A stretch of DNA of 64,000 bases from Pedobacter helvus (lineage in GTDB: Bacteria > Bacteroidota > Bacteroidia > Sphingobacteriales > Sphingobacteriaceae). Positions 32,043 through 54,848 of the stretch are shown here, in pieces (the first letter of the stretch is position 1; every line of letters begins with the position of its first letter). The notes beneath the pieces were generated by a model, which saw only the letters and a program-made list of their open reading frames with translations, was not told the DNA's origin and made no database searches. The stretch covers positions 124,001-188,000 of the forward strand of contig NZ_SRMP01000005.1 of NCBI RefSeq assembly GCF_005925325.1. The letters are read 5' to 3'. The position numbers and the translations under genes were made by a program.

Positions 32043-32106
32043 TACAAAAACGAACCATTTCTGAACAAAACCATACCATAGGCAAATACCTGTTTAAATA
32101 CTTTTG
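32043..32106 (+). promoter_or_regulatory. HTCS-type promoter 1: direct repeats plus -7 element
   Basis: TACAAAAACGAACC (32043-32056) and AACAAAACCATACC (32064-32077), 21 bases apart, then 21 bases, then TACTTTTG (32099-32106), a TAnnTTTG element. The same design occurs at 52152 and 54786. Repeat 2 is the most degenerate of the six. The -33 box is absent, as expected of activator-dependent promoters. It should drive the 32.4-47.6 kb operon. Confidence 0.75.
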
Positions 32107-32201
32107 TAATCAAGCTTCGGGTAGATTTTTAATCTGCTTGCTGCTTCAGCTTCTTGTCTTGAAAAGATAAGGTGGCGTTATCGACTTAACCAAATGAATG
32201 T

Positions 32202-32306
32202 ATGAAAATGAATTGCTACAAGCTTAAAATCTTGTTATGGTCTTCTCTTGACCTTATCATGTCCAACAACAATGCTGTTGCCATAAGCACTCATCGTTCC
32301 AATTAA
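32202..32306 (+). CDS. small ORF in the leader of the DUF4832 operon
   Basis: A 34-codon ORF starting MKMNCYKLKILLWSSL, with a hydrophobic, signal-like start and an A-rich AACCAAATG context, in the roughly 295-base leader after promoter 1. It could be a leader peptide, a decayed N-terminus of a SusC- or SusD-like gene, or chance. No similarity can be claimed. Confidence 0.2.
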   Translation: MKMNCYKLKILLWSSLDLIMSNNNAVAISTHRSN

Positions 32307-32403
32307 TTTGCGTTAGACAACACAGAAGTTTCGCCGATAATACCTGCGGTTAGAGATAAGGATTTTAAACATGCACACGAATACAAGCGCTTTCCAAGAA
32401 TTA

Positions 32404-33978
32404 ATGAACAAGAATTTTATACAACAATATATCCTAAAGACAGCGCTGTTAGCTTTTTTATCCTTATCTGTATTAGTGAGTTATTCGAAAGACGATAGTG
32501 GTAAGGATGATGGCAGAATTAAGATCGGTTATATCTCCGTTAAACCAAAATACGATGGCAAAACCGTATTACGCAACCCTTTAAATGGTTGGGTGATGTA
32601 CGCTTCTCGTAACGCAGATGAATCTTATTGGGATACCGAATTTTTTGTGCCAGAACTTAATAAAAAAGTAAAAGCAATAGATTATGCTTCGGCTTGCTAC
32701 ATCAGAACCAGTTGGTCTTCTCTAAATCCTAAAGATGGGGTTTATGCTTGGAATAACCCTAATTCTAGGATAGCAAAGCTGATTAAAGGTGCCGAAAAAA
32801 GAGGATTACCTGTAGCATTCCGTATTGTGGTTGATGGTCGCGATCAAGGGCAGAATACACCACAATTTGTATTCGAAGCGGGAGCAAAATATTATCTAGA
32901 AAACCCAGAAAATCCCAATAGGCAAACGCCTTATCCACAAGATCCAATATTTAGAAAGTACTACGCTAAATTTATCGAGGCTTTTGCTAAAGAATTTAAT
33001 GACCCGAAACGCACTTCATTTATTGATGCTTATGGTTTAGGTAAATGGGGCGAAGCGCATCACGTGGTTTATCAAGACCCAAAAACTGAGGAAACGGTAG
33101 ACATAGAAAAAACTAAAGAAGAGGTATTGGATTGGGTAACTGATTTATATGTGAAAACTTTTACTAAAATCCCTTTGGTCATTAACTATCACCGATTGGT
33201 TGGGCATCCCGAAAGTTGGGCTCCCGCAAATCCTAACAGTGAGCGTTTATTGGAAAAGGCCATTGCAAAAGGTTATAGTTTAAGGCATGATGCTTTTGGT
33301 ATGACCGGATATTACCAAGGCTGGGAAAAAGATTTTGCTAAGAAATGGAATTTCAAACGGCCAATTATTATGGAAGGTGGCTGGATTACCTCAAAAACAC
33401 ACAGCTATTGGATTGATCCGAGTGGTAAATATAGAAAAGGGCACCCAGAAGATGTAAGAAAAGGCGAGTATGTAGCTTCGGCAGAGGCACATGTAAATAT
33501 GATGGATTTTAGGGTAGGTGATACTGAATCTTGGTTTAAGGAATTCTCTTTGGTGCAAGGTTTTAATGCCGAAGGTGGCTATCGTTTGTATCCAGATGAA
33601 ATCAATTTTCCAAATCAAATTAAGGCAAATGCCACAGCAACCATTACACATCGTTGGAAAAATATGGGTTGGGGGTATTTTCCTAACAACATTCCGCAAT
33701 GGAACTATAAATATAAAGTAGCTTTTGCCTTATTAGACGCAGAAAACATAGTGAAGCAAGTTTTTGTAGATCAAAAAGCTGAGCCTTCTAGTTGGTTAAA
33801 AGGTAATTCTGTAACTAATGATTTAAAAACCAAGATAGAACTTCCGGCAGGAAAATACACTTGGGCAATAGCAATTGTAGATACTACAGAAAATAACCAA
33901 CCAGCAATACAATTGGCTGTAGAAGGAGAAACAACGCAAGAGGGATGGATAAAACTGAACGAGATACAAGTGCAATAG
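32404..33978 (+). CDS. DUF4832 TIM-barrel-like protein, paralogue 1 (putative hydrolase)
   Basis: 524 residues from the ATG at 32404; an upstream ATG at 32371 would put eleven residues before a good signal peptide. Conserved order with the 61233 paralogue: RNPLNGWVMY, AIDYASACYIRTSW, GLPVAFRIVVDGRDQG, AYGLGKWGEAH, INYHR, DAFGMTGYYQGW, IIMEGGWIT and a C-terminal beta-sandwich with HRWKNMGWGYFPNN typical of DUF4832. The glutamates in KWGEAH and MEGGW lie where a retaining TIM-barrel hydrolase keeps acid/base and nucleophile. The lipobox cysteine of the paralogue is replaced (LVSYSKD). First gene of the HTCS-controlled operon. Activity unknown. Confidence 0.78.
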   Translation: MNKNFIQQYILKTALLAFLSLSVLVSYSKDDSGKDDGRIKIGYISVKPKYDGKTVLRNPLNGWVMYASRNADESYWDTEFFVPELNKKVKAIDYASACYIRTSWSSLNPKDGVYAWNNPNSRIAKLIKGAEKRGLPVAFRIVVDGRDQGQNTPQFVFEAGAKYYLENPENPNRQTPYPQDPIFRKYYAKFIEAFAKEFNDPKRTSFIDAYGLGKWGEAHHVVYQDPKTEETVDIEKTKEEVLDWVTDLYVKTFTKIPLVINYHRLVGHPESWAPANPNSERLLEKAIAKGYSLRHDAFGMTGYYQGWEKDFAKKWNFKRPIIMEGGWITSKTHSYWIDPSGKYRKGHPEDVRKGEYVASAEAHVNMMDFRVGDTESWFKEFSLVQGFNAEGGYRLYPDEINFPNQIKANATATITHRWKNMGWGYFPNNIPQWNYKYKVAFALLDAENIVKQVFVDQKAEPSSWLKGNSVTNDLKTKIELPAGKYTWAIAIVDTTENNQPAIQLAVEGETTQEGWIKLNEIQVQ

Positions 33979-34012
33979 CGTAAACAACAGCAACCTAAAA
34001 ACCAAATATAAC

Positions 34013-35812
34013 ATGAACCAAACGTTGTACTTTAAACGCAAAACTAAGCCTATTGCCTTGTTGCAAAAAGGTAAATTGGCACTTTCTTACCTGCTCGTAG
34101 TATTAGCTATAAGCATGGGCTCCTGCTCTAAACCAAAATCTGAAGACAGTCCCGAACCAAGTATATCAGTAAAGTTAGATCAAGAGAAAATTACTTTAAA
34201 AGAAGGTGATGCCATTAAGATTACACCGAACTTTACCCCAGAAGTAACTTCAGCCAATACGCAATACCTATGGGAGGTAGCAGATTCTAGAATAGCCGAA
34301 GTTAAAGTCAATACAGATTTTTCGATAAGTGTAACTGGGAAAACCAAAGGAACAACTGAAATCAAACTATCCAATTTATCTGGGAAGAAGTTAGCTAGCT
34401 GTTTAATTAATGTAGAAGCTAAGGAGGTTCAGTACCAAGATGATGGCATCGTAAAGATTCTTGCTATTGGAAATAGTTTCTCCGAAGATGCGCTAGAATC
34501 TTTTCTGTTCGGTTTAGCAAACGCAAAAGGGCATAAAATTGTGATTGGTAATATGTATATCGGTGGCGCAAGTCTTTCGCTCCACGTACAAAATGCTACT
34601 AACAACGCAAACGCTTATTCTTATCGTAAAATCAATCAACAAGGTGTGAAAGCAACTACCGCTAATGTTTCTATTGCTACCGCATTGGCGGATGACGATT
34701 GGGATTATATCAGTTTTCAGCAAGAAAGTCCAAATTCTGGGATTTTCACCACATTTGCACCTTTAACTGATTTGTACAATTATGTAAAAACGAGGACAAA
34801 AAATCCACAAGTAAAATACATTTTGCACCAAACTTGGGCTTATCAAAAGAACTCAACCTATTCTGCGTTTGCGAATTACGATAAAGATCAGGATAAAATG
34901 TACGCCGCTATTGTTGACGCTTATATCCAAGCTAAAACTTTAATTCCTGTAGATCGGGTAGTACCAGCAGGTACGGCCATTCAAAATGGTAGAACAAGTC
35001 TCATTGGAGATAATTTTTGCCGAGATGGTTACCATTTAGATGTGAATATTGGAAGATACACCGCATCTTGTGCTTGGTTTGAAACTTTGTTTAACGAAAC
35101 TGTAGTCGGTAATAGCTACAAACCATCGGCTTTATCAGCTCTTGATACTGAAATTGCACAAAATGCAGCTCATTTTGCTTACTTAACTCCTAATAAAGTA
35201 ACTCCATTAGTGAATTATCAGGGAGGAGGAACTTCAGATTTAACCAAACCTATCTTGATTAATTTTGGAGGAAACACCGCTGCATCATGGAACACGGTAC
35301 CTCAATACACTGCCGGAACGACCGTCGCAAATTTAAAAGATCAAGCTGGTGCTAACACCGATTTTTCTATCACCATTGTAGAAGGTTTTAACAATAGAAA
35401 TCAAAACGGGCCAACAACAACCACTACCACTTCTTTTACTATGCCTAGTGCTGTTTCGTCGGATTCTTATTACGGTAATTCAAAAGCAGTATGGGAAGGT
35501 AAATCTGTAGAAAAGAGCATAGTTAAATTAAGCGGTTTAAATTCTGCAAAGAAATACAGCTTCTGCTTTTTCGGTTCTAGAACAGGTGTTACGGCTGGCG
35601 AAAACAGAGAGACGAAATATACGGTTAAAGGAACCAACGAAGTAATTGCTTTGTTGGATGCTGCAAATAATACTAATAACATTGCTTGCGCAGAGCAGGT
35701 TACGCCAAATTCCGCTGGAGAAATTACCATCACCATTACTGCTGGTAGTAACAACAATAACTCCTACGGCTTTTACTATATCAATGCTTTGCAACTTAAA
35801 CAAGTCAACTAA
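34013..35812 (+). CDS. DUF4886 SGNH-like esterase with Big_2 domain, lipoprotein
   Basis: 599 residues. Lipobox AISMGSC (Cys38) after an unusually long positive N-terminus; a bacterial Ig-like (Big_2) domain about 50-135; a DUF4886 SGNH-like domain about 145-385 with ILAIGNSFSED (S155 candidate nucleophile), DWDYISFQQES and the closing DGYHLD that supplies the Asp-His pair; then a C-terminal beta-rich domain (about 405-599) that looks carbohydrate-binding. An acetyl- or other acyl-esterase acting at the cell surface is a fair guess. It follows the DUF4832 gene by 34 bases and precedes GH36 by 16, so it deacylates or otherwise prepares the operon's glycan. Confidence 0.75.
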   Translation: MNQTLYFKRKTKPIALLQKGKLALSYLLVVLAISMGSCSKPKSEDSPEPSISVKLDQEKITLKEGDAIKITPNFTPEVTSANTQYLWEVADSRIAEVKVNTDFSISVTGKTKGTTEIKLSNLSGKKLASCLINVEAKEVQYQDDGIVKILAIGNSFSEDALESFLFGLANAKGHKIVIGNMYIGGASLSLHVQNATNNANAYSYRKINQQGVKATTANVSIATALADDDWDYISFQQESPNSGIFTTFAPLTDLYNYVKTRTKNPQVKYILHQTWAYQKNSTYSAFANYDKDQDKMYAAIVDAYIQAKTLIPVDRVVPAGTAIQNGRTSLIGDNFCRDGYHLDVNIGRYTASCAWFETLFNETVVGNSYKPSALSALDTEIAQNAAHFAYLTPNKVTPLVNYQGGGTSDLTKPILINFGGNTAASWNTVPQYTAGTTVANLKDQAGANTDFSITIVEGFNNRNQNGPTTTTTTSFTMPSAVSSDSYYGNSKAVWEGKSVEKSIVKLSGLNSAKKYSFCFFGSRTGVTAGENRETKYTVKGTNEVIALLDAANNTNNIACAEQVTPNSAGEITITITAGSNNNNSYGFYYINALQLKQVN

Positions 35813-35828
35813 AATAGAATAACAAGCA

Positions 35829-37883
35829 ATGATGAAACGGACACTTATAGCATTATTATTTCTTTCGGTTGTTAACACCTTGAAGGCAGAAGATAGCTAT
35901 TACAGTCGATTGGAAAAAGATACCCTAATAATAGGGAATAAGTGGATTGAAAGAAAATTTCTTTGGAACAACGGAAACCTAATTACTTTTAGTTTAAAGG
36001 ATAAATCTACTCAACAAACTTGGTTGAATAGGTTAAAAACTCCAGATTTTCAGCTGACCAAAGATGCAGCTTCTAATGGAAATTATACTTCAAAAGAAGT
36101 AAAGGAAACTGCTATTCATCCCAACTATTTGGCTGTAGAAGTGAACGTATCACTTGGCACTTTATCCATCAAGAAGGTGTATCGAATTTATGAGGATAGT
36201 CCTGTAATTGCTTGCGACGTCTACTTAAAAGGGAGCACAGAATTGGTGTTAGACAGTAAAGCAACTAATGCCGCAGATCGAAAAAACATAGAATTTGCAG
36301 AAGATATGAAGTCTCAGCAGATGACGGCCATATTAGATCAAATTAAGTTGGACGGCTTCCATTGGCAAACCAAAATTGTAGAGTTTTTCGATGTTACCGA
36401 CTGGAACAACAACCTGATACAAGAGAGAAGTATCATTCCTTATCGCAAAACCAATTATCGGGGAAATTTATTGGTGGCGCATAATAATGAAAACAATAAA
36501 GGTTTTTTCTTTTTGAAGGAAGCGCCAACCTCCAGCGTACAGTTGGCTTATCAAGGACACGATTTTACTATTGATTTCGGCCATTTTACAGTTAGCGGCT
36601 TGGGATTAACAACTAAAGACATCAAACCTGAGGAATGGACTAAAGCCTACAGCAGTGTAATTGGCGTGTACAGTGGGGGAGAATTACAGCAGCTTACCGC
36701 ATTACGTAACTATCAAAAAAATATCCGCAGGTTATTGCCACAACGTGATGAAATGGTGATGATGAACACTTGGGGAGATCGTAGCCAAGACTCAAAAGTG
36801 AACGAGAAATTCAGTTTGCTAGAGGTAGAAAAAGCTGCAGAACTCGGTGTGTCTCACTTTCAAATAGATGATGGTTGGCAGATTGGCAAAAGCCCTAACT
36901 CTGCATTAGCTAAAGGTTCTTTCAAAAATATTTGGGACAATCCAAACTACTGGAAACCTGACCCTGCAAAGTATCCCAATGGTTTGCATCCTATTGTTAA
37001 AAGAGGGAAAGAATTAGGCGTAGAAATTTGTCTGTGGTTTAACCCGAGTGTACAAAACGATTATGCCGATTGGCAAAAAGATGTGAATGCAATGGTGAAT
37101 TTATATAAAGAATATGGTATCCGCACCTTTAAAATCGATGGTTTAGCTATTCCAACCAAACAATCGGAAATCAATTTGCGCAAACTATTTGATAGCGTTT
37201 TGGAGCAAACCAATAACGAAGTGGTATTTAATTTAGATGCTACAGCGGGTAGGAGAGCGGGTTATTACACTTTCAATGAATATGGAAATGTGTTCTTGGA
37301 AAACCGTTACACCGATTGGCAGAATTACTATCCGTATTGGACTTTAAGGAACTTATGGCAATTGTCTAAATATGTGCCTGCTGAGAAATTGCAAATCGAA
37401 TTTTTAAATAAATGGCGAAATACGGATAAGTACGGCAAAGACATTTTTGCGCCAAACAATCATTCTTTCGAGTATTTATTTGCGACTACGATGGCTGCAC
37501 AACCTTTAGCTTGGTTCGAGGGAACAGGTTTACCTAGCGAAGCATTGAGGGTTAAAGATCTGATTAAAGCTTACCGGAAAATACAGCACGATTTCCATTT
37601 GGGAACTATTTTACCTATTGGCGATGAACCTTCAGGCAGGTCTTGGACTGGCTTTCAATCGCTAAATGGCAATCAAGGTTACTTCATTTTTTACAGAGAA
37701 AATACTGCCGGAGCTGTTGGCGCTGTGAAAACTTGGTTGTCCGCTGGCACCAAAGTGAAATGCACGGCTGTTTTAGGAAATGGAAAGACCATCAATACTA
37801 CCATCGCTAAAAACGGAACTATCGAAGTTACGCTTCCAAAAATTAACGACTTCGTGATGTACCGCTACGAAATCACAAAATGA
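35829..37883 (+). CDS. GH36 alpha-galactosidase
   Basis: 684 residues, signal peptide ending NTLKAED. N-terminal beta-supersandwich, then a barrel with MMNTWGDRSQD, GVSHFQIDDGWQIG, GVEICLWFNPS, TFKIDGLAI (D437, nucleophile position) and NLDATAGRRAGYY. It is a divergent member of GH36 of the kind common in Bacteroidota. Expected to release terminal alpha-galactose (or a related alpha-linked sugar) from oligosaccharides in the periplasm. GH97 starts 10 bases after its stop. Family good, exact sugar uncertain. Confidence 0.85.
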   Translation: MMKRTLIALLFLSVVNTLKAEDSYYSRLEKDTLIIGNKWIERKFLWNNGNLITFSLKDKSTQQTWLNRLKTPDFQLTKDAASNGNYTSKEVKETAIHPNYLAVEVNVSLGTLSIKKVYRIYEDSPVIACDVYLKGSTELVLDSKATNAADRKNIEFAEDMKSQQMTAILDQIKLDGFHWQTKIVEFFDVTDWNNNLIQERSIIPYRKTNYRGNLLVAHNNENNKGFFFLKEAPTSSVQLAYQGHDFTIDFGHFTVSGLGLTTKDIKPEEWTKAYSSVIGVYSGGELQQLTALRNYQKNIRRLLPQRDEMVMMNTWGDRSQDSKVNEKFSLLEVEKAAELGVSHFQIDDGWQIGKSPNSALAKGSFKNIWDNPNYWKPDPAKYPNGLHPIVKRGKELGVEICLWFNPSVQNDYADWQKDVNAMVNLYKEYGIRTFKIDGLAIPTKQSEINLRKLFDSVLEQTNNEVVFNLDATAGRRAGYYTFNEYGNVFLENRYTDWQNYYPYWTLRNLWQLSKYVPAEKLQIEFLNKWRNTDKYGKDIFAPNNHSFEYLFATTMAAQPLAWFEGTGLPSEALRVKDLIKAYRKIQHDFHLGTILPIGDEPSGRSWTGFQSLNGNQGYFIFYRENTAGAVGAVKTWLSAGTKVKCTAVLGNGKTINTTIAKNGTIEVTLPKINDFVMYRYEITK

Positions 37884-37893
37884 GACCAAAAAT

Positions 37894-39882
37894 ATGAGAA
37901 TTACCCTAACCACATTTTTACTAGCCCTTACCATCAGCTCTTGGGGACAAAAAAAGTATCAGCTAAAATCCCCCGATGGGAAATTGATTGCTGCTATTTC
38001 TTTGAACGATAAGATTAGTTATGCCATTACCCATCAAAACGACACTATTTTAAAACCTTCTGTCTTGAACATGACCTTAAATAACGGCGTGACTTGGGGC
38101 AAAGGCTCACAGTTAAGAAGTGCAAAAACAACTACCTCCCATCAACAGATTAACGCTCTGTTTTATAAAAGAAATCAAATTGACGACCATTACAATGAAC
38201 TTGTTTTGAGTTTCAAAGAGAACTTTAATCTCATTTTTAGGGCTTATAACGAAGGCATTGCTTACCGCTTTGTATCTACTAGCGATAAACTAATTACAGT
38301 AAAAAATGAGGAAGCTATTTTCAATTTTACCAAAGATTTCAACGCCTATGTACCTTATGTAAAAGGGAAGTTTAAGGATATCGAAAGTCAGTATTTCAAT
38401 TCTTTTGAGAATGAATATACTTATACGCCATTGAGTAAAATCAGTGCTGATAAGTTGGCTTTTTCGCCTTTGGTAGTGAGCTTAGATAACGGTAAAAAAG
38501 TTTGTTTAGCAGAAGCTGATTTGGAAAGTTATCCAGGCATGTACCTTACCAATACCAACGGTTCTAAGTCCTTACAGTCTAATTTTGCACATTACCCAAC
38601 AGCAACCAAACAAGGCGGGCACAACGAGTTGCAACAATTGGTTACGGCTCGTGAGCCTTATTTGGCTAAAAGCAAAGCTAAAGCCCAATTCCCTTGGCGT
38701 ATCGTGATTGTATCTACTAACGATAAACAATTGGCAGATAATGATATGGTCTACAAATTGGCGGCACCATCAAGAGTGGCAGATGCTTCTTGGGTTAAGC
38801 CAGGAAAAGTTGCTTGGGAATGGTGGAACCACTGGGGAATTTCAAACGTAGATTTTGAAGCGGGTATCAATACCGAAACTTACCAAGCTTACATCGATTT
38901 TGCCTCGAAAAATGGCATCGAGTATGTGATTTTAGATGAAGGATGGGCGGTTAACAAAAAAGCCGATTTGTTCCAAGTAGTACCGGAAATTGATTTGAAG
39001 AAACTGATTGCTCATGCCAAAGTTAAAAACGTAGGTATCATTTTATGGGCTGGTTATTATGCTTTCGAAAGAGATTTAGAGAAAGTGTGCAAGCATTATT
39101 CGGAAATGGGCGTAAAGGGTTTCAAGATTGATTTTATGGATCGTGATGACCAACAAATGGTAGATTTCCATTACCGAGCGGCAGAAGTAGCTGCTAAATA
39201 CAAACTGATGCTAGATTTCCATGGAACTTACAAGCCAACAGGCATAAACAGAACTTATCCAAATGTGATCAATTTCGAGGCTGTTCACGGTTTGGAGCAA
39301 ATGAAATGGACTGGGCCAGAGTTAGATCAAGTGACCTATGATGTGACTTTTCCTTTCATCCGCATGGTGGCTGGGCCAATTGATTATACACAAGGTGCGA
39401 TGCGCAATGCTACGAAAAGAACCCATCGTGGCATCAACGATGAACCGATGAGCCAAGGCACGCGTTGTCGTCAGTTGGCGCAATATGTCATTTTCGAATC
39501 GCCGCTAAATATGTTGTGCGATAGCCCAACCAATTACGAAAAAGAGCAAGAGTGTACCGATTTCATTTCTACTGTACCAACGGTTTGGGATCAAACTGTT
39601 GCCTTGGAGGGAGAGATTGGCAAGCATATTGCTATCGCACGTAAAAAAGGAGACCAGTGGTATGTGGGCGCTATGACCAATTGGGATGCTCGTAAAACCG
39701 AACTCGATTTATCTTTCTTAGGCGAAGGAAGTTATGTAGCAGAGCTGTACAGAGATGGCGCTAATGCCAATCGCATTGCCTCAGATTATAAAAAAGAAAC
39801 CATCACTATTCCTGCTAACCGCAAATTGAGCGTTTCAATGGCTAAAGGCGGGGGTGTGGCAATGAAAATCTATAAGAAATAA
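37894..39882 (+). CDS. GH97 alpha-glycosidase, second copy
   Basis: 662 residues, signal peptide ending SSWGQ. GH97 landmarks: ISYAITHQNDTIL in the N-terminal beta domain, WEWWNHWGIS, YVILDEGWA, VKGFKIDFMDRDDQ (D413), HGTYKPTGINRTYPN, FEAVHGLEQMKW, and FIRMVAGPIDYTQGAM. The Asp in KIDFM is the position of the retaining nucleophile, as in the 20303 protein, though the surrounding residues differ enough to suggest a different substrate. It follows GH36 and precedes GH2 by 6 bases, all in the HTCS operon. Confidence 0.88.
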   Translation: MRITLTTFLLALTISSWGQKKYQLKSPDGKLIAAISLNDKISYAITHQNDTILKPSVLNMTLNNGVTWGKGSQLRSAKTTTSHQQINALFYKRNQIDDHYNELVLSFKENFNLIFRAYNEGIAYRFVSTSDKLITVKNEEAIFNFTKDFNAYVPYVKGKFKDIESQYFNSFENEYTYTPLSKISADKLAFSPLVVSLDNGKKVCLAEADLESYPGMYLTNTNGSKSLQSNFAHYPTATKQGGHNELQQLVTAREPYLAKSKAKAQFPWRIVIVSTNDKQLADNDMVYKLAAPSRVADASWVKPGKVAWEWWNHWGISNVDFEAGINTETYQAYIDFASKNGIEYVILDEGWAVNKKADLFQVVPEIDLKKLIAHAKVKNVGIILWAGYYAFERDLEKVCKHYSEMGVKGFKIDFMDRDDQQMVDFHYRAAEVAAKYKLMLDFHGTYKPTGINRTYPNVINFEAVHGLEQMKWTGPELDQVTYDVTFPFIRMVAGPIDYTQGAMRNATKRTHRGINDEPMSQGTRCRQLAQYVIFESPLNMLCDSPTNYEKEQECTDFISTVPTVWDQTVALEGEIGKHIAIARKKGDQWYVGAMTNWDARKTELDLSFLGEGSYVAELYRDGANANRIASDYKKETITIPANRKLSVSMAKGGGVAMKIYKK

Positions 39883-39888
39883 TACAAA

Positions 39889-41673: not shown

Positions 41674-41691
41674 AAGTTCGAAACTAGAAAA

Positions 41692-41811
41692 ATCCTCCCC
41701 CTACCCACGCTCTTGCCGGCGCACCCCCCTCCAAAAGGAGACATGCATAGTTTTCTATTCGATACTGTTTAGGTGCTACGTATGTCCCCTTTGGAGGGGG
41801 TAGAGGGAGGA
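41692..41811. repeat. imperfect inverted-repeat element inside the operon
   Basis: TCCTCCCCCTACCC and CCCCCTCCAAAAGGAGACAT on the left pair with ATGTCCCCTTTGGAGGGGG and TAGAGGGAGGA on the right. This C-rich/G-rich pair looks like the small mobile intergenic repeats of Bacteroidota. It lies between the two GH2 genes and could form a long hairpin in the transcript, lowering expression downstream. Confidence 0.6.
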
Positions 41812-41856
41812 ATATCTAAATAAAAAGAAACTTGAAATATAACACAAAACCCACAA

Positions 41857-44583: not shown

Positions 44584-44595
44584 GAAAGGAACGTG

Positions 44596-45363: not shown

Positions 45364-45365
45364 AA

Positions 45366-47564
45366 ATGATGAAGAAGACTATTTTAGTGCTGGCACTTAC
45401 GTCAGCCACTTTATTTTCAAGTTATAAACAAGAAAACCCACTTTATAAAGATGCTAAACAGCCTATCGAGAAACGTATAGAAGATTTGTTGGCTCGTATG
45501 ACCTTGGAAGAAAAGGTAATGCAGTTGAACCAATATACCTTAGGCAGAAACGATAATGCCAACAACATGGCAGATCCGGTAAACGATATTCCTGCGCAGG
45601 TGGGCTCATTAATTTATTTCGGTAGCAATGCCGATTTACGTAATCGAGTACAGAAAAAAGCGATGGAGCAAAGTCGTTTGGGTATTCCGATTATTTTTGG
45701 GTACGATGTCATTCACGGTTTCCGCACTATTTACCCAATTTCTTTGGGGCAAGCTTGTTCTTGGAACCCAGCTTTGGTAGAAAAAGCTTGTGGGGTTGCT
45801 GCACAAGAAGCGAGAATGTCGGGTATTGATTGGACTTTTTCGCCTATGATCGATGTAGCAAGAGACGGTCGTTGGGGACGTGTTGCCGAGGGTTATGGCG
45901 AAGATACCTACACCAATGCCATTTTTACTGTGGCTTCGGTTAAAGGTTACCAAGGAACAAATTTGGCTAGCGACAAAAACGTAGCTGCTTGTTTGAAACA
46001 TTACATCGGTTACGGCGCATCAGAAGCTGGACGTGATTATGTGTATTCAGAGATTTCTAACCAAACACTTTGGGATACTTACATGCCACCCTACGAAGCA
46101 GGAGTAAAGGCAGGCGCAGTAACTTTGATGAGTTCGTTCAACGATATCAGTGGCACGCCAGGTTCGGCAAACCATTACACTTTAACAGAAGTATTGAAAA
46201 AACGTTGGAAACACGATGGTTTTGTGGTTTCAGATTGGGGGTCTATCGAACAGCTTCGTCCGCAAGGTGTGGCGGCAAACAAAAAAGAAGCGGCTTTAAA
46301 AGCATTTACGGCTGGCGTAGAGATGGATATGATGAACAGAAGCTACGACAACCATTTAGGAGATTTAGTGAAAGAGGGTAAGGTATCGGAAACATTATTA
46401 AATGATGCTGTAAGACGTGTGTTGAGAGTGAAATTCAAATTAGGATTATTTGATCGTCCCTACACACCAACCACCACCGAAAAACAGCGTTTCTATCGCC
46501 CAGAGAGTTTAAAAATTGCAGAACAATTGGCTGAAGAAAGTATCGTTTTGCTTAAAAATAAAGATAAAGCATTACCGCTAAATAACGTTTCAAAAATTGC
46601 AGTGATTGGTCCAATGGCAAAAAGCCAGTGGAATTTATTGGGTTCTTGGGCAGCACAAGGCAAGTCAGACGATATCATTAGCATTAGCGATGCTTTACAA
46701 GCAGAATTTAAAGGCAAAGCCGAAGTGTCTTACGCTTTAGGTGCCGATTTTGATGGTCAGGATAGAAAAGGTTTTGAAGAAGCGAAAGCTTTAGCTGCGA
46801 AATCTGATGTGATTGTGTTATGCTTAGGCGAAAAGAAAAACTGGAGTGGCGAAAATGCTTCTCGCTCAACCATCGCGTTACCACAAATACAGGAAGAATT
46901 GGCTATCGAGCTGAAGAAATTGGGTAAGCCTATCATTTTAGTGTTGTCTAGCGGCCGTCCGTTAGAGTTGAACAGATTAGAACCAATTAGTGATGCGATT
47001 TTAACGATGTGGCAACCAGGAACACCAGGCGGCAAACCACTTTCAGGTGTTTTGTCTGGTCGTGTCAATCCATCGGGTAAATTAGCCATGACCTTCCCAT
47101 TCTCTACAGGTCAAATTCCAATTTATTACAATTACAGACAAAGTGCTCGTCCGCATCAAGGTAAATATCAAGATATTCAAAGTACGCCTTTATATGAGTT
47201 TGCACACGGTTTAAGCTACACTACTTTCGAGTACGGCGATTTAAAAGTTTCAGCCATACAAATCAAACGTGGTGAAAAACTAACAGTTGAAATTCCAGTG
47301 AAAAATACTGGCGATAGAGACGGCGTGGAAACGGTACATTGGTTTATTCAAGATCCAGTTTCCAGCATTTCTCGCCCTATTAAAGAGCTTAAATATTTTG
47401 AAAAACAGCTGTTGAAAAAAGGCGAGACTAAAACCTACAAATTCGAAGTAGACTTACAGCGTGACTTGAGCTTTGTTGATGGTGATGGCAAACGCTTTTT
47501 AGAAGCTGGAGACTACAATATCATCGTTAAAAACAAGAAAATTAAAATAGAAATCGTAGATTAA
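45366..47564 (+). CDS. GH3 beta-glucosidase (BglX-like)
   Basis: 732 residues. GH3 with barrel, alpha/beta sandwich and C-terminal FnIII-like domain: IEDLLARMTLEEKVMQLNQY, GIPIIFGYDVIHGFRTIYPI, DGRWGRVAEGYGEDTY, nucleophile in VVSDWGS (D290), KNWSGENASRSTIALPQIQEE, and YEFAHGLSYTTFEYG. It removes terminal beta-linked glucose, xylose or related sugars from oligosaccharides. The N-terminal signal ends LFSSYKQE, where relatives have a lipobox cysteine, so this copy may be soluble. It ends the operon, followed by tandem hairpins. Confidence 0.92.
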   Translation: MMKKTILVLALTSATLFSSYKQENPLYKDAKQPIEKRIEDLLARMTLEEKVMQLNQYTLGRNDNANNMADPVNDIPAQVGSLIYFGSNADLRNRVQKKAMEQSRLGIPIIFGYDVIHGFRTIYPISLGQACSWNPALVEKACGVAAQEARMSGIDWTFSPMIDVARDGRWGRVAEGYGEDTYTNAIFTVASVKGYQGTNLASDKNVAACLKHYIGYGASEAGRDYVYSEISNQTLWDTYMPPYEAGVKAGAVTLMSSFNDISGTPGSANHYTLTEVLKKRWKHDGFVVSDWGSIEQLRPQGVAANKKEAALKAFTAGVEMDMMNRSYDNHLGDLVKEGKVSETLLNDAVRRVLRVKFKLGLFDRPYTPTTTEKQRFYRPESLKIAEQLAEESIVLLKNKDKALPLNNVSKIAVIGPMAKSQWNLLGSWAAQGKSDDIISISDALQAEFKGKAEVSYALGADFDGQDRKGFEEAKALAAKSDVIVLCLGEKKNWSGENASRSTIALPQIQEELAIELKKLGKPIILVLSSGRPLELNRLEPISDAILTMWQPGTPGGKPLSGVLSGRVNPSGKLAMTFPFSTGQIPIYYNYRQSARPHQGKYQDIQSTPLYEFAHGLSYTTFEYGDLKVSAIQIKRGEKLTVEIPVKNTGDRDGVETVHWFIQDPVSSISRPIKELKYFEKQLLKKGETKTYKFEVDLQRDLSFVDGDGKRFLEAGDYNIIVKNKKIKIEIVD

Positions 47565-47572
47565 GCGGATTA

Positions 47573-47640
47573 TATGGATGGCGGGTACGCCATCCATAAG
47601 CTACTTGCTAGGTTTGGCGTCCTCGCCGAACCCTTTTAAT
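47573..47640 (+). terminator. tandem terminator hairpins before the HTCS gene
   Basis: Hairpin 1: TATGGATGGCG, GGTA, CGCCATCCATA (47573-47598). Hairpin 2: GGTTTGGCG, TCCT, CGCCGAACC (47611-47632), followed by CTTTTAATTTTT. It separates the GH3 operon from the sensor gene. Confidence 0.75.
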
Positions 47641-47689
47641 TTTTACTATTGTTATCCTTAACTGGAATAAAAGAGAAGCTTTTTGTTAA

Positions 47690-50600
47690 ATGAAGAAATA
47701 TGTACTGGTCGCTTTTTTAGCTACGCTACTTTTTCAAAGTGTTTTTGCAATTGATATCTCCAAATATCGATTTCATGTGATGCCCGAAACTTCCTATTAT
47801 GGAGGCATACAAAGTATCGCTAAAGACAGTTTAGGTAGAATGTGGTACACAGGACCAGATGCGCTTTTCATGTACGATGGCAACAGCTTTTATCAGTTAA
47901 ACGATATCGTTTTTGCCATTCAGCCTAAAGTTAAATGGGGTTACGGTTCGGTAGTTAGAGATAAAAAAGGAAATCTTTTTCTCAGTACCGGACATGGCTT
48001 GTTAAAATTCGACTATCAAAAGTTTGCATTCGATTTAGTGGTGAATGGCAGGATCCGTTCAATTTGCTTACATGACGATGGTAAACTGTATATGTTATCA
48101 GGCGATACCTTGAAGCGATACGACGACAAAACCAAAAAAACAGATTTCTTTCCGCTGCCTAAAAATCAGCCGTTAAACAATCTCATTAGCCTAAAAGGGA
48201 ATGTCTATCTCACACAAGATGCAGTTTTGCAAAAGGTAGATATGGCTAAAAAAAGGTTGATCCCTTTTGCCAATTTCGGTGCGGTTACCAATGCGGTAAA
48301 CGATGGTTTAGCATATCGAGGTCTGTATTATTTCCTTACGCAAAGAGGAGGAATTCATGTTACGGATGCTGCGGGAAATTTGAAACAGAAAATTCCAGTA
48401 GTGGTAGGTGGCAATCAATCCATGTTGTCTAAAAAGCTGTATATAGATCAAACTGGGGTAATTTGGGTAGCTACGCAAGCAGGATTGTTTTTCTACGATC
48501 CAGTGTCGGAAACGAGCAATTACCTGCGTATGAACCTTAACGATGCTTTTTCGCTACCAACTAATTCCATTTGGACCATTTATCCCGATCCTGATCAAGG
48601 TGCTTGGATAGGAACTTACGGTGGTAAAATTGCCTATTGTTCACTGTACGATTCGCGGGTTCGTTACTTTAATCCAAGTCCTGGTGGACTAAACCATCCC
48701 ATTGTAAGTAGTTTTCAGGAAGATCATTTGGGCAATATTTGGATTGGTACCGAGGGCGGTGGACTGAATTATTGGAACAGGCAAAGCGATGCTTTCAGTC
48801 ATTATTTAAAGTCGCAGGGCAATTCGCCAAATTCTAATATGATCAAGCGTCTAAAGTTTGATCGAGCGAATAAACAATTGGCGATCTCTGCATATAGTGG
48901 TGGCATTGGCTATCATGATATGAATAGCAGAGCATTTAGCAGTCTTGATTTCCTTTCTCCAGAAAGTAAGCAGCCTTTAACTGTTTACGATTTTGTTAGA
49001 GATAATCAGGGCACATGGTGGATGAGTGATCCAGATCGTTCGTTTTTTTACAGAAAGAAACAAAATGGTCCTGTCGAGTTGGTTCGGGTAACTGGAACTG
49101 ATGGTAAAATAATGGGTTTGGAAGTCGAAGCGGTATTTATTGATAAGCAAAATCAACTTTGTTTAGTTACGCACCAAGGCTTTTTTATTGTAGATCCGAA
49201 TACGCTGAAAGTCCTCAAACAGTATTTAATTGATGATCCGTTTTACTCCGCAAATTATCTGTGCACTTTTGTTCAGGCTTCTAACGGCGATTTATGGTTT
49301 GGAACCTTAGGCCGCGGGGTGAATGTGCTTAAAAAGGACGGAACCTATGTAAATTATGGTACTGCTAACGGTTTGGCAGCCAAAATGGTTTTCGGTATTT
49401 TAGAAGATAATGCCTCTAAAAACATGTGGCTAAGTACAAATGATGGTTTGTATTTTTACGATAGCAAGTCGAAGGTGTTTGAAAAAGCCAGATTTTACCA
49501 GGAAAACAGCTGTGGTTCGTTCTACATCCGCTCTGCTTACAAAACAAGCAAAGGCGAAATGCTATTTGGCGGAACCAATGGTTTCATGCTATTTGATCCC
49601 GCTTTTTTAAACAAAAACCCACAGAAGCCAAAAGTATTTTTTACTGGTTTTCTGGTGAATAACAACTTGGTTACACCGCATTCAGAAAATTCTCCCTTAG
49701 AAAAGGATATTGCTAGTCTTTCTAACCAGAAGAATGACAGGATACGACTTTCGAGTAGCCAATCTAACGTCGAAATCAGGTTTTCGGCTAATAGTTATTT
49801 GTCGGCAGATAAGAACCAATTTGCCTATCGTATGAAAGGTCTTGGCGATAAATGGCAAATTAGTCACGCCAACCAAAAATCACTACAGTTTTTGAATTTG
49901 CCAAGCGGAGATTACACTTTCGAGATCAAGGCTTCAAATAACGATGGACTTTGGGGCGACGAGATTTCGAGATTGTATATTCACGTAGATCCACCATTTT
50001 TCTTATCGTGGTGGGCCTATTGCTTTTACTTCGCGGTAGCACTTTCTTTGTTATTTTTCATGACAAGATATTACACCAATAAGAAGGTTTTTAACGAAAG
50101 ACTGGCTTTGGAAGCTTTAAAAGAAAGAAATATGCGTGAGTTGAACCAAGCTCGTACAGATTTCTTTACCAATATTTCACATGATTTAAAAACGCCATTA
50201 ACGCTTGTTATTCAGCCTTTAAAACAATTGAAAGAAACTTTGGCAGCTAATGATAGCGCCGTGGGGTACATGGGCTTAATCGAGAAAAATGTATCCAAAA
50301 TACAGCGAATGATCAGTCAATTGTTGCGTTTCCGTGAAATTGAAAGTCAGAAAATTACACTTAATCCGCAGATTGGTGATTTTATCAACTTTGTGAAAGA
50401 TCTTTTTGGATTATTTGAACTTTATGCGAACAAGAAGGAAATTGAAACTAATATCGCAGCTCATAAGGATAATTTGCTAGTTGCTTTTGATTACGATGTG
50501 ATCGAGAAAATCTTAACCAATCTGTTCTCAAATGCGTTGAAATATACGCCAAATAAAGGTTATGTTGGGGTTCGCATATACAACTCAACCGATGAAGAGA

Positions 50601-51760
50601 AGGAAAGATTAGCGGAAAAATTGGATGAGCGGGAAACGGAATATGTTTCTATTGAGGTTTTAAATAGTGGCGATGGATTTTCGGAAGAGCAGATTGCTAC
50701 GCTTTTTACTTCATTCAACCGTTTATCGTCGCATCGACCTACTTTTGAAGAAAGTTCTGGATTGGGTTTAGCGATTGTGAAAGAATTGGTTGATGTGCTG
50801 AACGGGAAAATCTGGATGGTGAACAAAACGGATAAAATCTCGTTCACCATTATGCTACCGCTGAAAAAGCAAGCAGGTTCTGGAGATATGCAATCTACCG
50901 TTTACGATTATACCATTTCGGAGATCGATGATATTGTGATGCAAGATACAGCCGAACCAGAGAATGGTACTACAGGCATCAGAAAGGCAGATAACATTTT
51001 GTTGATTGAAGATGATCCGCAATTGCGTGCTTATTTAGAACAACGACTGGCAGAAAAGTACAATGTGTACACGGCGAGCGATGGGGCAGAAGGAATGACC
51101 AAGGCAGAAAAAATTTATCCTCAATTGATCATTACCGATTTGATTATGCCGAACAAAAACGGTTTGGATGTTTGCCGTAGTTTAAGACAGAATTTCAAAA
51201 CCAGTCACATTCCAATCATCATGATTTCGGGTAATGGAGATGACAACCAGAATAAAATCAAGGCATTAGAGTATGGTGCCAGTGTGTTTATCGATAAGCC
51301 TTTCGATGTTGAATATTTGTTGCAACAGGTAGAAACAACGCTTAAAAATCAGCAAGAACTGAAGGAAAAATATAGTAAACGCATTCAGGTAGATCCGTCT
51401 AATGTAACAGTGACTTCGATGGACGAAGAATTGCTACGAAAAGCGATGAAAGTAATTGAAGAAAATATTGCCAATGCCAATTATTCGGTTGAAGATTTCG
51501 TGTCGGATATGAATGTGGGTAGAACGATCCTATATCAGAAAATCAATGATATTGTGGGCATGTCTATCAAAGAATTTATCTTGAATATTCGTTTGAAAAG
51601 AAGTGCTTATTTATTAGAGAAATCAGATTTGACAGTTGCCGAAGTAGCTTATCAAACCGGTTTTAATAATGCGAAATACTTTAGTGTTTGTTTCAAAAAG
51701 CAGTTCGATTTAAGTCCTTCGGATTTTAAGAAGAAAACTGCTGCAGGTACGAGGAAATAG
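47690..51760 (+). CDS. hybrid two-component system sensor/regulator (HTCS)
   Basis: 1356 residues in one chain: signal peptide (1-21); periplasmic two-propeller sensor of repeated blades (DSLGRMWYTGPDA, DQTGVIWVATQAG, DHLGNIWIGTEGG, ASNGDLWFGTLGR) to about 640; Y_Y_Y domain to about 765; a membrane span near 768-790; HisKA with ISHDLKTP (H831); HATPase with LFSNALKYTPNKG and SSGLGLAIVKEL; receiver with IITDLIMP (D1150); and an AraC-type helix-turn-helix about 1255-1356 ending in YFSVCFKKQFDLSPSDFKK. HTCS proteins bind an oligosaccharide outside the membrane and switch on their locus. The shared direct repeats at 32.05, 52.16 and 54.79 kb, which flank this gene, are its likely targets. Confidence 0.96.
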   Translation: MKKYVLVAFLATLLFQSVFAIDISKYRFHVMPETSYYGGIQSIAKDSLGRMWYTGPDALFMYDGNSFYQLNDIVFAIQPKVKWGYGSVVRDKKGNLFLSTGHGLLKFDYQKFAFDLVVNGRIRSICLHDDGKLYMLSGDTLKRYDDKTKKTDFFPLPKNQPLNNLISLKGNVYLTQDAVLQKVDMAKKRLIPFANFGAVTNAVNDGLAYRGLYYFLTQRGGIHVTDAAGNLKQKIPVVVGGNQSMLSKKLYIDQTGVIWVATQAGLFFYDPVSETSNYLRMNLNDAFSLPTNSIWTIYPDPDQGAWIGTYGGKIAYCSLYDSRVRYFNPSPGGLNHPIVSSFQEDHLGNIWIGTEGGGLNYWNRQSDAFSHYLKSQGNSPNSNMIKRLKFDRANKQLAISAYSGGIGYHDMNSRAFSSLDFLSPESKQPLTVYDFVRDNQGTWWMSDPDRSFFYRKKQNGPVELVRVTGTDGKIMGLEVEAVFIDKQNQLCLVTHQGFFIVDPNTLKVLKQYLIDDPFYSANYLCTFVQASNGDLWFGTLGRGVNVLKKDGTYVNYGTANGLAAKMVFGILEDNASKNMWLSTNDGLYFYDSKSKVFEKARFYQENSCGSFYIRSAYKTSKGEMLFGGTNGFMLFDPAFLNKNPQKPKVFFTGFLVNNNLVTPHSENSPLEKDIASLSNQKNDRIRLSSSQSNVEIRFSANSYLSADKNQFAYRMKGLGDKWQISHANQKSLQFLNLPSGDYTFEIKASNNDGLWGDEISRLYIHVDPPFFLSWWAYCFYFAVALSLLFFMTRYYTNKKVFNERLALEALKERNMRELNQARTDFFTNISHDLKTPLTLVIQPLKQLKETLAANDSAVGYMGLIEKNVSKIQRMISQLLRFREIESQKITLNPQIGDFINFVKDLFGLFELYANKKEIETNIAAHKDNLLVAFDYDVIEKILTNLFSNALKYTPNKGYVGVRIYNSTDEEKERLAEKLDERETEYVSIEVLNSGDGFSEEQIATLFTSFNRLSSHRPTFEESSGLGLAIVKELVDVLNGKIWMVNKTDKISFTIMLPLKKQAGSGDMQSTVYDYTISEIDDIVMQDTAEPENGTTGIRKADNILLIEDDPQLRAYLEQRLAEKYNVYTASDGAEGMTKAEKIYPQLIITDLIMPNKNGLDVCRSLRQNFKTSHIPIIMISGNGDDNQNKIKALEYGASVFIDKPFDVEYLLQQVETTLKNQQELKEKYSKRIQVDPSNVTVTSMDEELLRKAMKVIEENIANANYSVEDFVSDMNVGRTILYQKINDIVGMSIKEFILNIRLKRSAYLLEKSDLTVAEVAYQTGFNNAKYFSVCFKKQFDLSPSDFKKKTAAGTRK

Positions 51761-51961: not shown

Positions 51962-51969
51962 GTCGAATT

Positions 51970-52125: not shown

Positions 52126-52151
52126 AAAACCTTCAAATTTCCATCCTAAAG

Positions 52152-52215
52152 TACAAAACCGAACCATTTCTGTACAAAAATGAACCCTTCAACCTGGGTG
52201 TTTGTGTTAGTTTTG
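52152..52215 (+). promoter_or_regulatory. HTCS-type promoter 2: direct repeats plus -7 element
   Basis: TACAAAACCGAACC (52152-52165) and TACAAAAATGAACC (52173-52186), 21 bases apart; 21 bases later TAGTTTTG (52208-52215). The GH88 start follows 39 bases after. A small hairpin TGCCAAA-TCTCC-TTTGGCA (52220-52238) lies in the leader. Confidence 0.85.
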
Positions 52216-52254: not shown

Positions 52255-53445
52255 ATGAACAAAAAAAGAACACAAATTTCATTGCTATTGCTGATAGCGT
52301 TAACTACTGTAGGGCAACTAAAGGCTCAGTCCTTAAAAAAAGTAATCGATAAAGCTTTCGAAAATGCACAGCAACAAAGTTTGCTGATGGCGAAGAAATA
52401 CGAAAATCAGCCAAGAAGATTACCGAGGTCTTTTGAAGGAGGCAAAGATACCTCGTCAGACTCCAGATGGTGGTGCAGTGGTTTCTTTCCAGGTACACTT
52501 TGGTATTTGTACGAAAACGGCAAAAATCAAGACGTATTGAAATACGCTAAACTTTACACGGATAGGGTAGAGCGAGAAAAATACACTACCGATAATCACG
52601 ATGTAGGTTTTATGTTGTATTGCAGTTTTGGTAATGGTTTGCGACTTACCGGCGAAGAACGCTATAAAGAAGTACTGTTGACAGGAGCAAAATCTTTAGC
52701 TACTCGTTTTGACGCTAACGTTGGATTGATCCGTTCCTGGGATCATAACACCGATATTTGGCAATACCCTGTGATTATTGATAACCTGATGAACTTGGAA
52801 CTGATGTTATGGGCAGCTAATTATTCCAAAGATGAAAAGTTTAAAAAAATAGCAGTTTCACATGCAGATAAAACGATGATCCACCATTTTAGACCAGATT
52901 TTAGTTCTTACCACGTGGTTTCTTATGATAAAAAAACGGGTTTACCCCATAAAAAACAAACCCATCAAGGTGCTGCAGACGATTCTGCTTGGAGCCGCGG
53001 ACAGTCTTGGGGTTTGTACGGTTACACCTATCTTTACCGAGAAACTAAAGACAAACGTTATCTAGAGCAGGCAAAAAATATCGCCAATTTTTTGATCAAT
53101 CATCCGCAAATGCCAAAAGATTTTATTCCTTACTGGGATTACAATGCACCACAAATTCCAAATACTACACGTGATGCTTCTGCGGCAACAGTGATGGCTT
53201 CGGCATTGATAGAGCTCAGCGATTTCGTAGATGCAGATTTGAAAAAGAAATACATGAAAGTAGTTGATACTCAAATTAGAACCTTGGCATCTGATGAATA
53301 TACTGCTAAATTAGGCGAAAATGGGGATTTCATCTTGAAACATAGTACTGGTGCCTTCCCTTTTAAGTCGGAAGTTGATGCACCTTTAACCTACGCAGAT
53401 TATTATTATTTAGAAGCATTAACAAGATTGAAGAAAAGGCTTTAA
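52255..53445 (+). CDS. GH88 unsaturated glucuronyl hydrolase
   Basis: 396 residues, signal peptide ending LKAQS. GH88 (alpha/alpha)6 barrel: SRWWCSGFFPGTLWYLYE, NHDVGFMLYCSFGNGLRLTG (D116), IIDNLMNLELMLWA (D176), GAADDSAWSRGQSWGLYGYTY, YWDYNAP and DASAATVMASALIELS. The two aspartates are spaced as in characterised unsaturated glucuronyl hydrolases. It removes 4,5-unsaturated uronate from oligosaccharides produced by a polysaccharide lyase. No classical lyase family is recognisable in the regulon, so the partner may be the next gene or a DUF4832 protein. Confidence 0.93.
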   Translation: MNKKRTQISLLLLIALTTVGQLKAQSLKKVIDKAFENAQQQSLLMAKKYENQPRRLPRSFEGGKDTSSDSRWWCSGFFPGTLWYLYENGKNQDVLKYAKLYTDRVEREKYTTDNHDVGFMLYCSFGNGLRLTGEERYKEVLLTGAKSLATRFDANVGLIRSWDHNTDIWQYPVIIDNLMNLELMLWAANYSKDEKFKKIAVSHADKTMIHHFRPDFSSYHVVSYDKKTGLPHKKQTHQGAADDSAWSRGQSWGLYGYTYLYRETKDKRYLEQAKNIANFLINHPQMPKDFIPYWDYNAPQIPNTTRDASAATVMASALIELSDFVDADLKKKYMKVVDTQIRTLASDEYTAKLGENGDFILKHSTGAFPFKSEVDAPLTYADYYYLEALTRLKKRL

Positions 53446-53504
53446 ATAATAGTAAAAACAAGGTATTCTTGCGTTCAAATTTATAATCTATACTAAATAC
53501 ACCA

Positions 53505-54722
53505 ATGTCGATCTTTAAGAAAGCATTATTCACGATCTGCCTTTTGTTTTGCAGCTTCCACGTTTTATCAGCAAAGCCAAATCTTAAGGCTGAGGATACT
53601 TATATCAGTCCGAATAATTATAAGTCTGGTACACAATCAGAACGCATACAGAAGGCCATCAATGATGCCAAGAAAACCACAGGCAAAGTGGTAATTCCGA
53701 GATATGATGCCGTTACAAAAACGAGTGTTTGGTTAATAGATCAGGCAATTTTGCTGCCTAACGATTTTGAGCTAGAACTGAACAATTGCAAAATCAAATT
53801 ATCAGATAGATGCAGAGATAATTTCATCCGTTCTGCAAATGCAGGTTTAGGAATTAAGGATATCGCTCCGCTAAAAAATATCAAGGTTATTGGCGTAGGT
53901 AATGTATTGTTGGAGGGAGCTAACAATCCGCGTTCTACTGGCGATCACAACAAAACTTTGTCATTAAATCCAGATGGTTTTGGCCAATCTTATGGTACCG
54001 ATGCAGGCAAGCCAAACGAAAATCAAAAAGGTGGTTGGAGAAATCATGCGATTATTTTTGCCTATGTGGATGGCTTTCAGATCAGCGGAATTACTTTGAA
54101 AGATTACCACGGTCACGGTTTAGTAATGGAGCGTAGCACGAATGGTGTGGTTAAAGACATTACTTTCGATGTGCGACAAGCCGTAAACGTTGCCGGAACA
54201 GAAAAGCAAATCCTTAATCAGGATGGAATGGGTGTACGTTTTGGCTGCAAAAACATCATCATTTCTAACATCAAAGGAAAAAGTGGTGACGATTTTATCA
54301 ATATCGGTTTAACTGATACAGGGGTAGAAGCGGGCAAAGAAAACGTGAACGTAGTCAGCGGTTCAATATACGCTGGAGAAAAAGATAACATCTCAAATAT
54401 TTACCTGCAAAACTGGCAAGATTTCTATTCCATTTCACATCGAGCTATTCGAATTATGCCAGTTGGCAAATTGAGGATCAGCAATGTATTTATCGAAAAT
54501 ATGATCATCAGCCCTTTATCTAAAAAAGGATTGGAAGCCGAATATGCCGAGAACATCAAAGGTCTATTTGTAAGAAACCTGGTAAGTAATTTCCAGGTAA
54601 AAGCCAAAGGAATAACTGAAGCTAGCTTTAGAGATATTTTTTATACAGGTGAAGGAGCTGCGATAGATATTCAACAAAGTGATAATGTGGTGGTAGATAA
54701 TGTGAGAAATATTAAGAAATAA
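53505..54722 (+). CDS. right-handed beta-helix protein, GH28/lyase-like
   Basis: 405 residues, signal peptide ending LSAK. Parallel beta-helix pattern with repeated short strands. The N-terminus YKSGTQSERIQKAINDA is typical of polygalacturonase/pectate-lyase-like proteins. GH28-like residues are partly present: NQDG (N238, D240), GDD (D262, D263) and SHRAIR (H312, R316), but the classical GHG and RIK spacing is not kept. It could be a divergent GH28 or a lyase. It is downstream of GH88 on the same transcript, so it may generate that enzyme's substrate. Family fold likely, activity unassigned. Confidence 0.65.
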   Translation: MSIFKKALFTICLLFCSFHVLSAKPNLKAEDTYISPNNYKSGTQSERIQKAINDAKKTTGKVVIPRYDAVTKTSVWLIDQAILLPNDFELELNNCKIKLSDRCRDNFIRSANAGLGIKDIAPLKNIKVIGVGNVLLEGANNPRSTGDHNKTLSLNPDGFGQSYGTDAGKPNENQKGGWRNHAIIFAYVDGFQISGITLKDYHGHGLVMERSTNGVVKDITFDVRQAVNVAGTEKQILNQDGMGVRFGCKNIIISNIKGKSGDDFINIGLTDTGVEAGKENVNVVSGSIYAGEKDNISNIYLQNWQDFYSISHRAIRIMPVGKLRISNVFIENMIISPLSKKGLEAEYAENIKGLFVRNLVSNFQVKAKGITEASFRDIFYTGEGAAIDIQQSDNVVVDNVRNIKK

Positions 54723-54734
54723 AAACGCTCAAAA

Positions 54735-54769
54735 CGCATTTTTTCGGCTAAAACGGTTGAAAAAATGCG
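54735..54769. terminator. stem-loop after the beta-helix gene
   Basis: Perfect 11-base arms CGCATTTTTTC and GAAAAAATGCG around a 13-base loop, directly after the stop at 54722. The tract of T is inside the stem, so it is an unusual terminator or a processing hairpin. Confidence 0.5.
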
Positions 54770-54785
54770 GATAATGCCTCGTTTG

Positions 54786-54848
54786 TACAAAACCAAACCA
54801 TTTTCGTACAAAAGTGAACCCTCCGAATAGGCGATGTATATAGTTTTG
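54786..54848 (+). promoter_or_regulatory. HTCS-type promoter 3: direct repeats plus -7 element
   Basis: TACAAAACCAAACC (54786-54799) and TACAAAAGTGAACC (54807-54820), 21 bases apart; 20 bases later TAGTTTTG (54841-54848). This is the likely promoter of the SusC-SusD-SusE-DUF4832 operon. Confidence 0.85.

Follow-up and report, generated by a model that had tools for sequence, protein, structure and literature searches.

The locus and its operators

A 64,000-nucleotide stretch of the Pedobacter helvus genome (the window; C8:124001-188000 within a 4.62-Mb genome) contains a gene for a hybrid two-component system (HTCS) regulator and three plus-strand operons that, as a first-pass annotation of this DNA had claimed, are headed by one type of operator. 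The HTCS unites a propeller/Y_Y_Y sensor, HisKA, HATPase_c, a receiver and an AraC helix-turn-helix (HTH) in a single protein; its gene lies beside susC/susD and carbohydrate-active enzyme genes, and SHIP is read from the sequence at residue 1172 of its receiver. It is the only AraC-domain HTCS of the locus, as annotated, but its gene belongs to one of the operons said to flank it, closing the one behind site 32043 (operon 1, 32371-51760). We put at about 0.88 the probability that the three sites are operators of this one HTCS (47690-51760), at which two AraC domains would act on TAnnTTTG promoters, with two unlinked genes included in the set.

Chance does not account for the three sites, which are real. 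The window holds a single exact repeat TACAAAAnnGAACC-N7-TACAAAAnnGAACC, at 52152, and 100 shuffles gave none, while site 54786 departs from two exact copies by one mismatch. At 32043 the first copy is perfect and the second, AACAAAACCATACC, has three mismatches in its 12 specified bases, so the annotation overstates the case in giving this site, too, a pair of copies. The TAnnTTTG element placed 20-21 bp downstream is found at every site, with gaps of 21, 21 and 20 bp; since the plus strand of the 64 kb holds 37 such elements, a gap of 20 or 21 has a chance of about 0.0012 per site. A scan that presupposed no sequence looked for 14-mers recurring at a period P (at least 10/14 identical) and ending 17-24 bp before TAnnTTTG. 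It gave four matches at P = 21, namely the three sites and 57228 (minus strand, inside susC), and no more than one at any of the 16 other periods between 15 and 31. Lone half-sites with up to three mismatches are only weakly enriched (128 against a shuffle mean of 99.8, with one shuffle in 100 reaching 128).

Table 1. Operators, promoter elements and genes of the window
Feature	Coordinates	Strand	Remarks
Operator 1, GTACAAAAACGAACC-ATTTCT-GAACAAAACCATACC	32042..32077	+	imperfect proximal half-site; 44.2 bits
Operator 2, perfect direct repeat	52151..52186	+	49.7 bits
Operator 3, single mismatch in copy 1	54785..54820	+	47.0 bits
-7 element, promoter 1, TACTTTTG	32099..32106	+	TAnnTTTG match; gap 21
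-7 element, promoter 2, TAGTTTTG	52208..52215	+	TAnnTTTG match; gap 21
-7 element, promoter 3, TAGTTTTG	54841..54848	+	TAnnTTTG match; gap 20
DUF4832-like protein, operon 1 gene 1	32371..33978	+	domain search, E 7e-6, below Pfam's cut-off
DUF4886 protein, operon 1	34013..35812	+	domain search
Melibiase-like protein, operon 1	35829..37883	+	domain search
GH97, operon 1	37894..39882	+	domain search
GH2, operon 1	39889..41673	+	domain search
GH2-like, operon 1	41857..44583	+	domain search
Protein with beta-galactosidase-type accessory domains only, operon 1	44593..45363	+	domain search
GH3, operon 1	45366..47564	+	domain search
HTCS, final gene of operon 1	47690..51760	+	Reg_prop, Y_Y_Y, HisKA, HATPase_c, receiver, AraC HTH
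GH88-type unsaturated glycuronyl hydrolase, operon 2	52255..53445	+	domain search
GH28-like enzyme, operon 2	53505..54722	+	domain search
SusC-like TonB-dependent receptor, operon 3	55252..58251	+	domain search
SusD-like, operon 3	58270..59916	+	domain search
SusE-like, operon 3	59971..61194	+	domain search
DUF4832-like paralog no. 2, operon 3	61233..62798	+	E 7e-5, below Pfam's cut-off
NUDIX/NrtR-type regulator, winged-helix domain	31005..31721	+	domain search; adjoins operon 1 and the galT-galK-symporter genes
NUDIX/NrtR-type regulator, other copy	5835..6551	-	domain search

Conservation of the operator with its probable regulator

Each of 21 orthologous stretches, drawn from Pedobacter, from Sphingobacterium and from a single record titled Flavobacteriaceae, contains the HTCS, and 20 contain SusC. 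The operator, with at most two mismatches and no linker requirement, is present in 19; the two stretches without it do not show the needed region, the operon start lying outside one (L052) and the other (L060) starting inside operon 1 and running to a contig end. All 21 orthologs match the window's AraC domain at 84-100% identity, the genome's two other HTCSs at 33-38%. Pedobacter xixiisoli has the closest HTCS ortholog among named records (best segment 94% identical, very near relatives possibly being excluded). The HTCS of 'Flavobacteriaceae bacterium PS02338' (L055) is 91% identical to the window's, this record being mislabelled or the gene transferred, and that of Pedobacter agri PB92 is split into two open reading frames (ORFs) near the contig end (L060:10001-14066).

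The same association appears in a family sample of 201 genomes, the genome of P. helvus included. An HTCS match at E <=1e-70 occurs in 13, and in 12 of these it is at least 60% identical (61-100%). All 12 genomes with such an ortholog carry the operator (at most two mismatches), against one of the remaining 189 (G105), an association with a Fisher probability of 2e-18 when shared ancestry is ignored. The ATTT-containing form of the operator is specific, giving 38 matches across the 201 genomes against 2 for the reversed pattern. All 38 were read, several gene names being assigned by eye from the N-terminal part. The 33 matches with at most two mismatches head 14 SusC-type, 7 DUF4832-like, 4 melibiase-like and 2 GH105-like genes, 1 GH2 gene, 4 genes for a secreted protein of the type found on contig C5 of P. 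helvus, and 1 unrelated-looking gene (G110:C5). Of the five loci with three mismatches, L086, which is followed by a melibiase-like gene, looks real, and L063, L064, L069 and L075 do not; in the four genomes with three-mismatch matches only (G020, G067, G115 and G190) these matches look like chance.

The genome-wide 14-N7-14 scan proposed in the first-pass annotation was rejected in its bare form, which at up to two mismatches is near noise: 73 of 395 class genomes matched, reversed-pattern matches were likewise scattered over many class genomes, and G258 and G465, where tandem repeats occur, gave many matches. With no mismatches, the matches listed fall only in G000 and G061, both of which carry the ortholog. 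In this class sample orthologs were sought within the family only.

The best HTCS in the assembly of the exceptional genome, G105, is 39% identical, and this genome retains operon 1 minus DUF4886 at 83-96% protein identity, with a shortened GH3 and other genes after it. The locus is broken inside GH3, and an apparent deletion took away the regulator. At operon 1 of G105 the operator shows two mismatches, with TACTTTCG standing in for TAnnTTTG; the C5 operator of G105 is intact. On the contig concerned, G105:C52 (L096, L113), the HTCS and the susC half of the polysaccharide utilization locus (PUL) appear deleted, and operon 1 and its operator are kept.

In G105, a genome without the HTCS, an ortholog of the NUDIX/NrtR-type protein 31005-31721 also adjoins operon 1, and in the window this winged-helix protein adjoins site 1. 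Reading of the operator by a different regulator such as this one is nevertheless very improbable. No NUDIX homolog of at least 40% identity occurs in any of the 21 orthologous stretches, where the DUF4832-first operon head is in view in 12 (all Sphingobacterium) and outside view in six of Pedobacter type, and none is seen among ORFs of at least 150 aa in the 12-kb stretch around the operon-1 head of G110. NrtR-type regulators, moreover, bind palindromes.

Architecture of the operator

The anatomy of the operator was derived from 39 non-redundant sites out of 64, part of them collected using the ATTT-containing pattern. The half-site consensus is GTACAAAAnnRAACC and the linker is ATTTYY. Among 20 sites found without the ATTT requirement, the linker reads ATTTCTG in 10, ATTTTCG in 6, ATTTCCG in 3 and TTTTTTG in 1, so what had been annotated as an N7 spacer is a conserved ATTTYY linker followed by a G that belongs to the half-site. 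The linker is absent after copy 2, which is mostly followed by CT. The 21-bp period described for the window holds generally: of 29 half-site pairs within 60 bp (at most one mismatch each; 21 stretches and the window), 26 are 21 bp and 3 are 5 bp apart, against one pair at 22 bp and one at 51 bp for the reversed pattern. In three Sphingobacterium stretches the operon-1 operator is preceded, at a distance of 21 bp, by a third and degenerate half-site (L043:2332, L044:2291, L045:2305), with 3-4 mismatches for the overlapping pair.

The -7 element lies at a fixed distance from the operator. TAnnTTTG follows at 20 bp in 18 sites, 21 bp in 16, 19 bp in 1 and 22 bp in 1 (36 of 39 within 19-22 bp, 34 at 20 or 21). 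The exact element is missing in three sites: L005 (TAGTTTTA), L085 (TACTTTCG) and L064, the last probably a chance match. A -33 TTG at 17-23 bp spacing is found in none of the 36 sites with TAnnTTTG, because half-site 2 occupies the -33 position; two sites have one at 16 bp. The annotated lack of a -33 box therefore holds, and it would fit an activator that replaces the -33 contact; it is weak evidence for one, since PMC7366714 reports that a -33 motif was not identifiable in Flavobacterium johnsoniae.

The imperfect second copy of site 1, with its three mismatches, could mean that the HTCS binds but that sites 2 and 3 alone are of consequence, with a weak or dead site 1. This is unlikely, as the site-1 form AACAAAnnnATACC together with TAnnTTTG is kept at the DUF4832-first operon in all 12 Sphingobacterium stretches with that order, and in G110. 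A rule by which a weak half-site marks the regulator-bearing operon is true in the window, G110, the 12 Sphingobacterium stretches and L053; it was rejected because at that operon the site of L054 is perfect and that of G006 has one mismatch.

Probable unlinked members

The whole operator, with up to three mismatches, has five copies in the P. helvus genome, and its reversed form has none. Judged by sequence, two unlinked genes share the operator-bearing promoter type. The operator at C9:302428 precedes a gene (C9:300258-302243, minus strand) for yet another DUF4832-like paralog, the third, of 661 residues; it falls below Pfam's cut-off but shares 68% identity with the product of the window's gene 32371 over the portion compared. 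The operator at C5:542013 precedes a gene (C5:542326) for a 716-residue protein whose sole Pfam match is a secretion-system sorting tail. The comparative data support one HTCS regulon, with the correction that it extends beyond the locus; matches are not confined to the locus, as had been expected, since these two genes carry the operator and C10 holds a broken copy.

A profile of 38 columns and 37 rows was used, from which L064, a three-mismatch match that looks like chance, and L088, a strong site before an unrelated-looking gene, were omitted; it served to score 150 candidates per genome. The five P. helvus sites score 44-50 bits, which is high by construction because they are training rows of the profile; the result is the gap to the background, the broken copy at C10:190390 scoring 29.5 bits and the next among the listed matches 14.4. 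The broken copy faces the 3' end of an opposite-strand neighbour, and no ORF belonging to it is visible. Two other matches score in between, at 29.1 bits for the second site of G142 and 20.9 bits for the three-mismatch match of G115, a genome without an HTCS ortholog. Genes related to that of the C5 protein likewise stand behind operators in G006, G105 and G110 (59-77% identity over the portion compared), as do DUF4832-like genes on non-HTCS contigs in G006 (C25) and G110 (C9).

The C5 site and operator 3 share an extended stretch that includes the start of a leader ORF, and one of the two probably arose by duplication. Taken further, this could make the sites a core-promoter or duplicated DNA repeat and no activator operator at all. 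Such a reading is scarcely plausible: the flanks are otherwise different, the period and the -7 gap are conserved across two genera, and operators with at most two mismatches are missing from 188 of the 189 family genomes without a close ortholog. The leader ORF itself (54878-55072, plus strand; 64 aa, MKTNQLIALAI...) lies between operator 3 and susC; its first ~11 residues are alike in L040, L041, L042, L055 and L058 and after the C5 operator (L001), and diverge beyond.

Predicted autoregulation

The HTCS gene lies 48-218 bp behind a same-strand gene in the window and in each of the 21 stretches. An operator is visible at the head of the gene run that contains the HTCS in 14 of the 21 stretches and in the window, and from this arrangement positive feedback on the HTCS is predicted. 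A conserved promoter of the HTCS itself was considered and rejected, TAnnTTTG being found in the gap ahead of the HTCS in 1 of 22 loci, the window alone. A hairpin at 47573-47598, with 11-bp arms, lies between GH3 and the HTCS and is followed by TAGGTTTG; it is a possible attenuator or HTCS promoter, and L055 has a comparable hairpin with 10-bp arms.

At the same thresholds (period 21, 10/14), no operator was found for the genome's two other HTCSs, on C10, or for the 42% homolog of G011. Between an HTCS and a susC on that contig, at C10:148044, lies a 22-bp pair that is a lead only.

Gene content

The GH88-type protein of operon 2 is one that we take to be GH105-like. galT, galK, a sodium:solute symporter gene and a glucuronoyl-esterase-like gene lie nearby on the minus strand, and a homolog of the last is found within the PUL in 3 of the 21 orthologous stretches. 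The substrate may be guessed to be a galactose- and uronate-containing glycan. The two NUDIX/NrtR-type regulators of the window (5835-6551 and 31005-31721) are candidate sugar-responsive regulators, comparable to BtAraR.

Proposed mechanism and relation to known systems

From the sites, their spacing and conservation, the co-occurrence and the gene order, we infer a course of events that runs from ligand to activation. A periplasmic oligosaccharide would activate the sensor, and phosphotransfer to the fused receiver would release the AraC domain. Two AraC domains would then bind the half-sites in head-to-tail order with a separation of two helical turns, the one downstream standing at the place of the -33 element, and together they would recruit RNA polymerase to TAnnTTTG. 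The two unlinked genes would likewise be driven by the HTCS in this genome and, the HTCS being the final gene of operon 1, the system should amplify itself.

Several observations weigh against this reading. The 60% identity cut was chosen after the table was seen, and the HTCS of G011 passes E 1e-70 at 42% identity, yet that genome has no operator. Co-occurrence alone does not distinguish the HTCS from the other genes of a locus inherited as a unit. A strong site in G110 (C5:14268, L088; TAnnTTTG gap 21) heads a large protein unlike the other targets. Nor is autoregulation universal: G063, G073 and G076, whose HTCSs are 61-63% identical, have the susC operator directly behind the HTCS, and no operator was found upstream of that gene. 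The 125-bp leader of the HTCS, finally, contains TAGGTTTG (47609-47616) and a hairpin and may hold a promoter of its own.

The general design is familiar. In PMC3878776, motifs predicted for 16 of 36 Bacteroides thetaiotaomicron HTCSs are direct repeats averaging 21 bp, interpreted as dimers two helical turns apart, and some regulons include distant operons. The system described here shares the AraC-domain HTCS, the ~21-bp direct repeat (two tandem sites upstream of operons, conserved ahead of orthologs where the orthologous regulator occurs), the inferred dimer and the distant operons. The two-turn direct repeat of the first-pass annotation is therefore seen but not new, the mechanism being already known from that description of Bacteroides HTCSs. 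The motifs given there are from Bacteroides, and their spacers are described as non-conserved, whereas the sites in Pedobacter and Sphingobacterium carry the ATTTYY linker.

The B. thetaiotaomicron HTCSs BT4124 and BT4663 share the receiver-AraC layout and SHIP, although the genes are different; PMC11253607 ties the receiver SHIP to suppression of DNA binding before phosphorylation and reports bound susC promoters. According to PMC6874557, HTCS-type regulators are typically expressed constitutively and at a low level, unlike the predicted self-amplifying regulator here.

Activation by AraC itself uses the I1-I2 arrangement, head-to-tail half-sites 21 bp apart beside the core promoter. The half-site layout of the operator is alike, but the signal would arrive here through a sensor kinase and at a Bacteroidota TAnnTTTG promoter.

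No description of an HTCS operator for Pedobacter or Sphingobacterium was found in the open-licence papers searched, the published ones found being from Bacteroides, and the operator may be undescribed. What this analysis would add is the specific operator, its putative cognate HTCS group in two genera and the candidate unlinked targets. A self-amplifying HTCS regulon whose regulator usually sits inside operons under its own operator, with dispersed single-gene members and an ATTTYY linker that carries specificity besides the half-sites, is a tentative picture to which we give somewhat less than even odds. Because both genera offer a clean operator and a regulator to match, binding, autoregulation and the co-evolution of operator and regulator can be tested directly, and two unlinked genes would be assigned to a glycan system.

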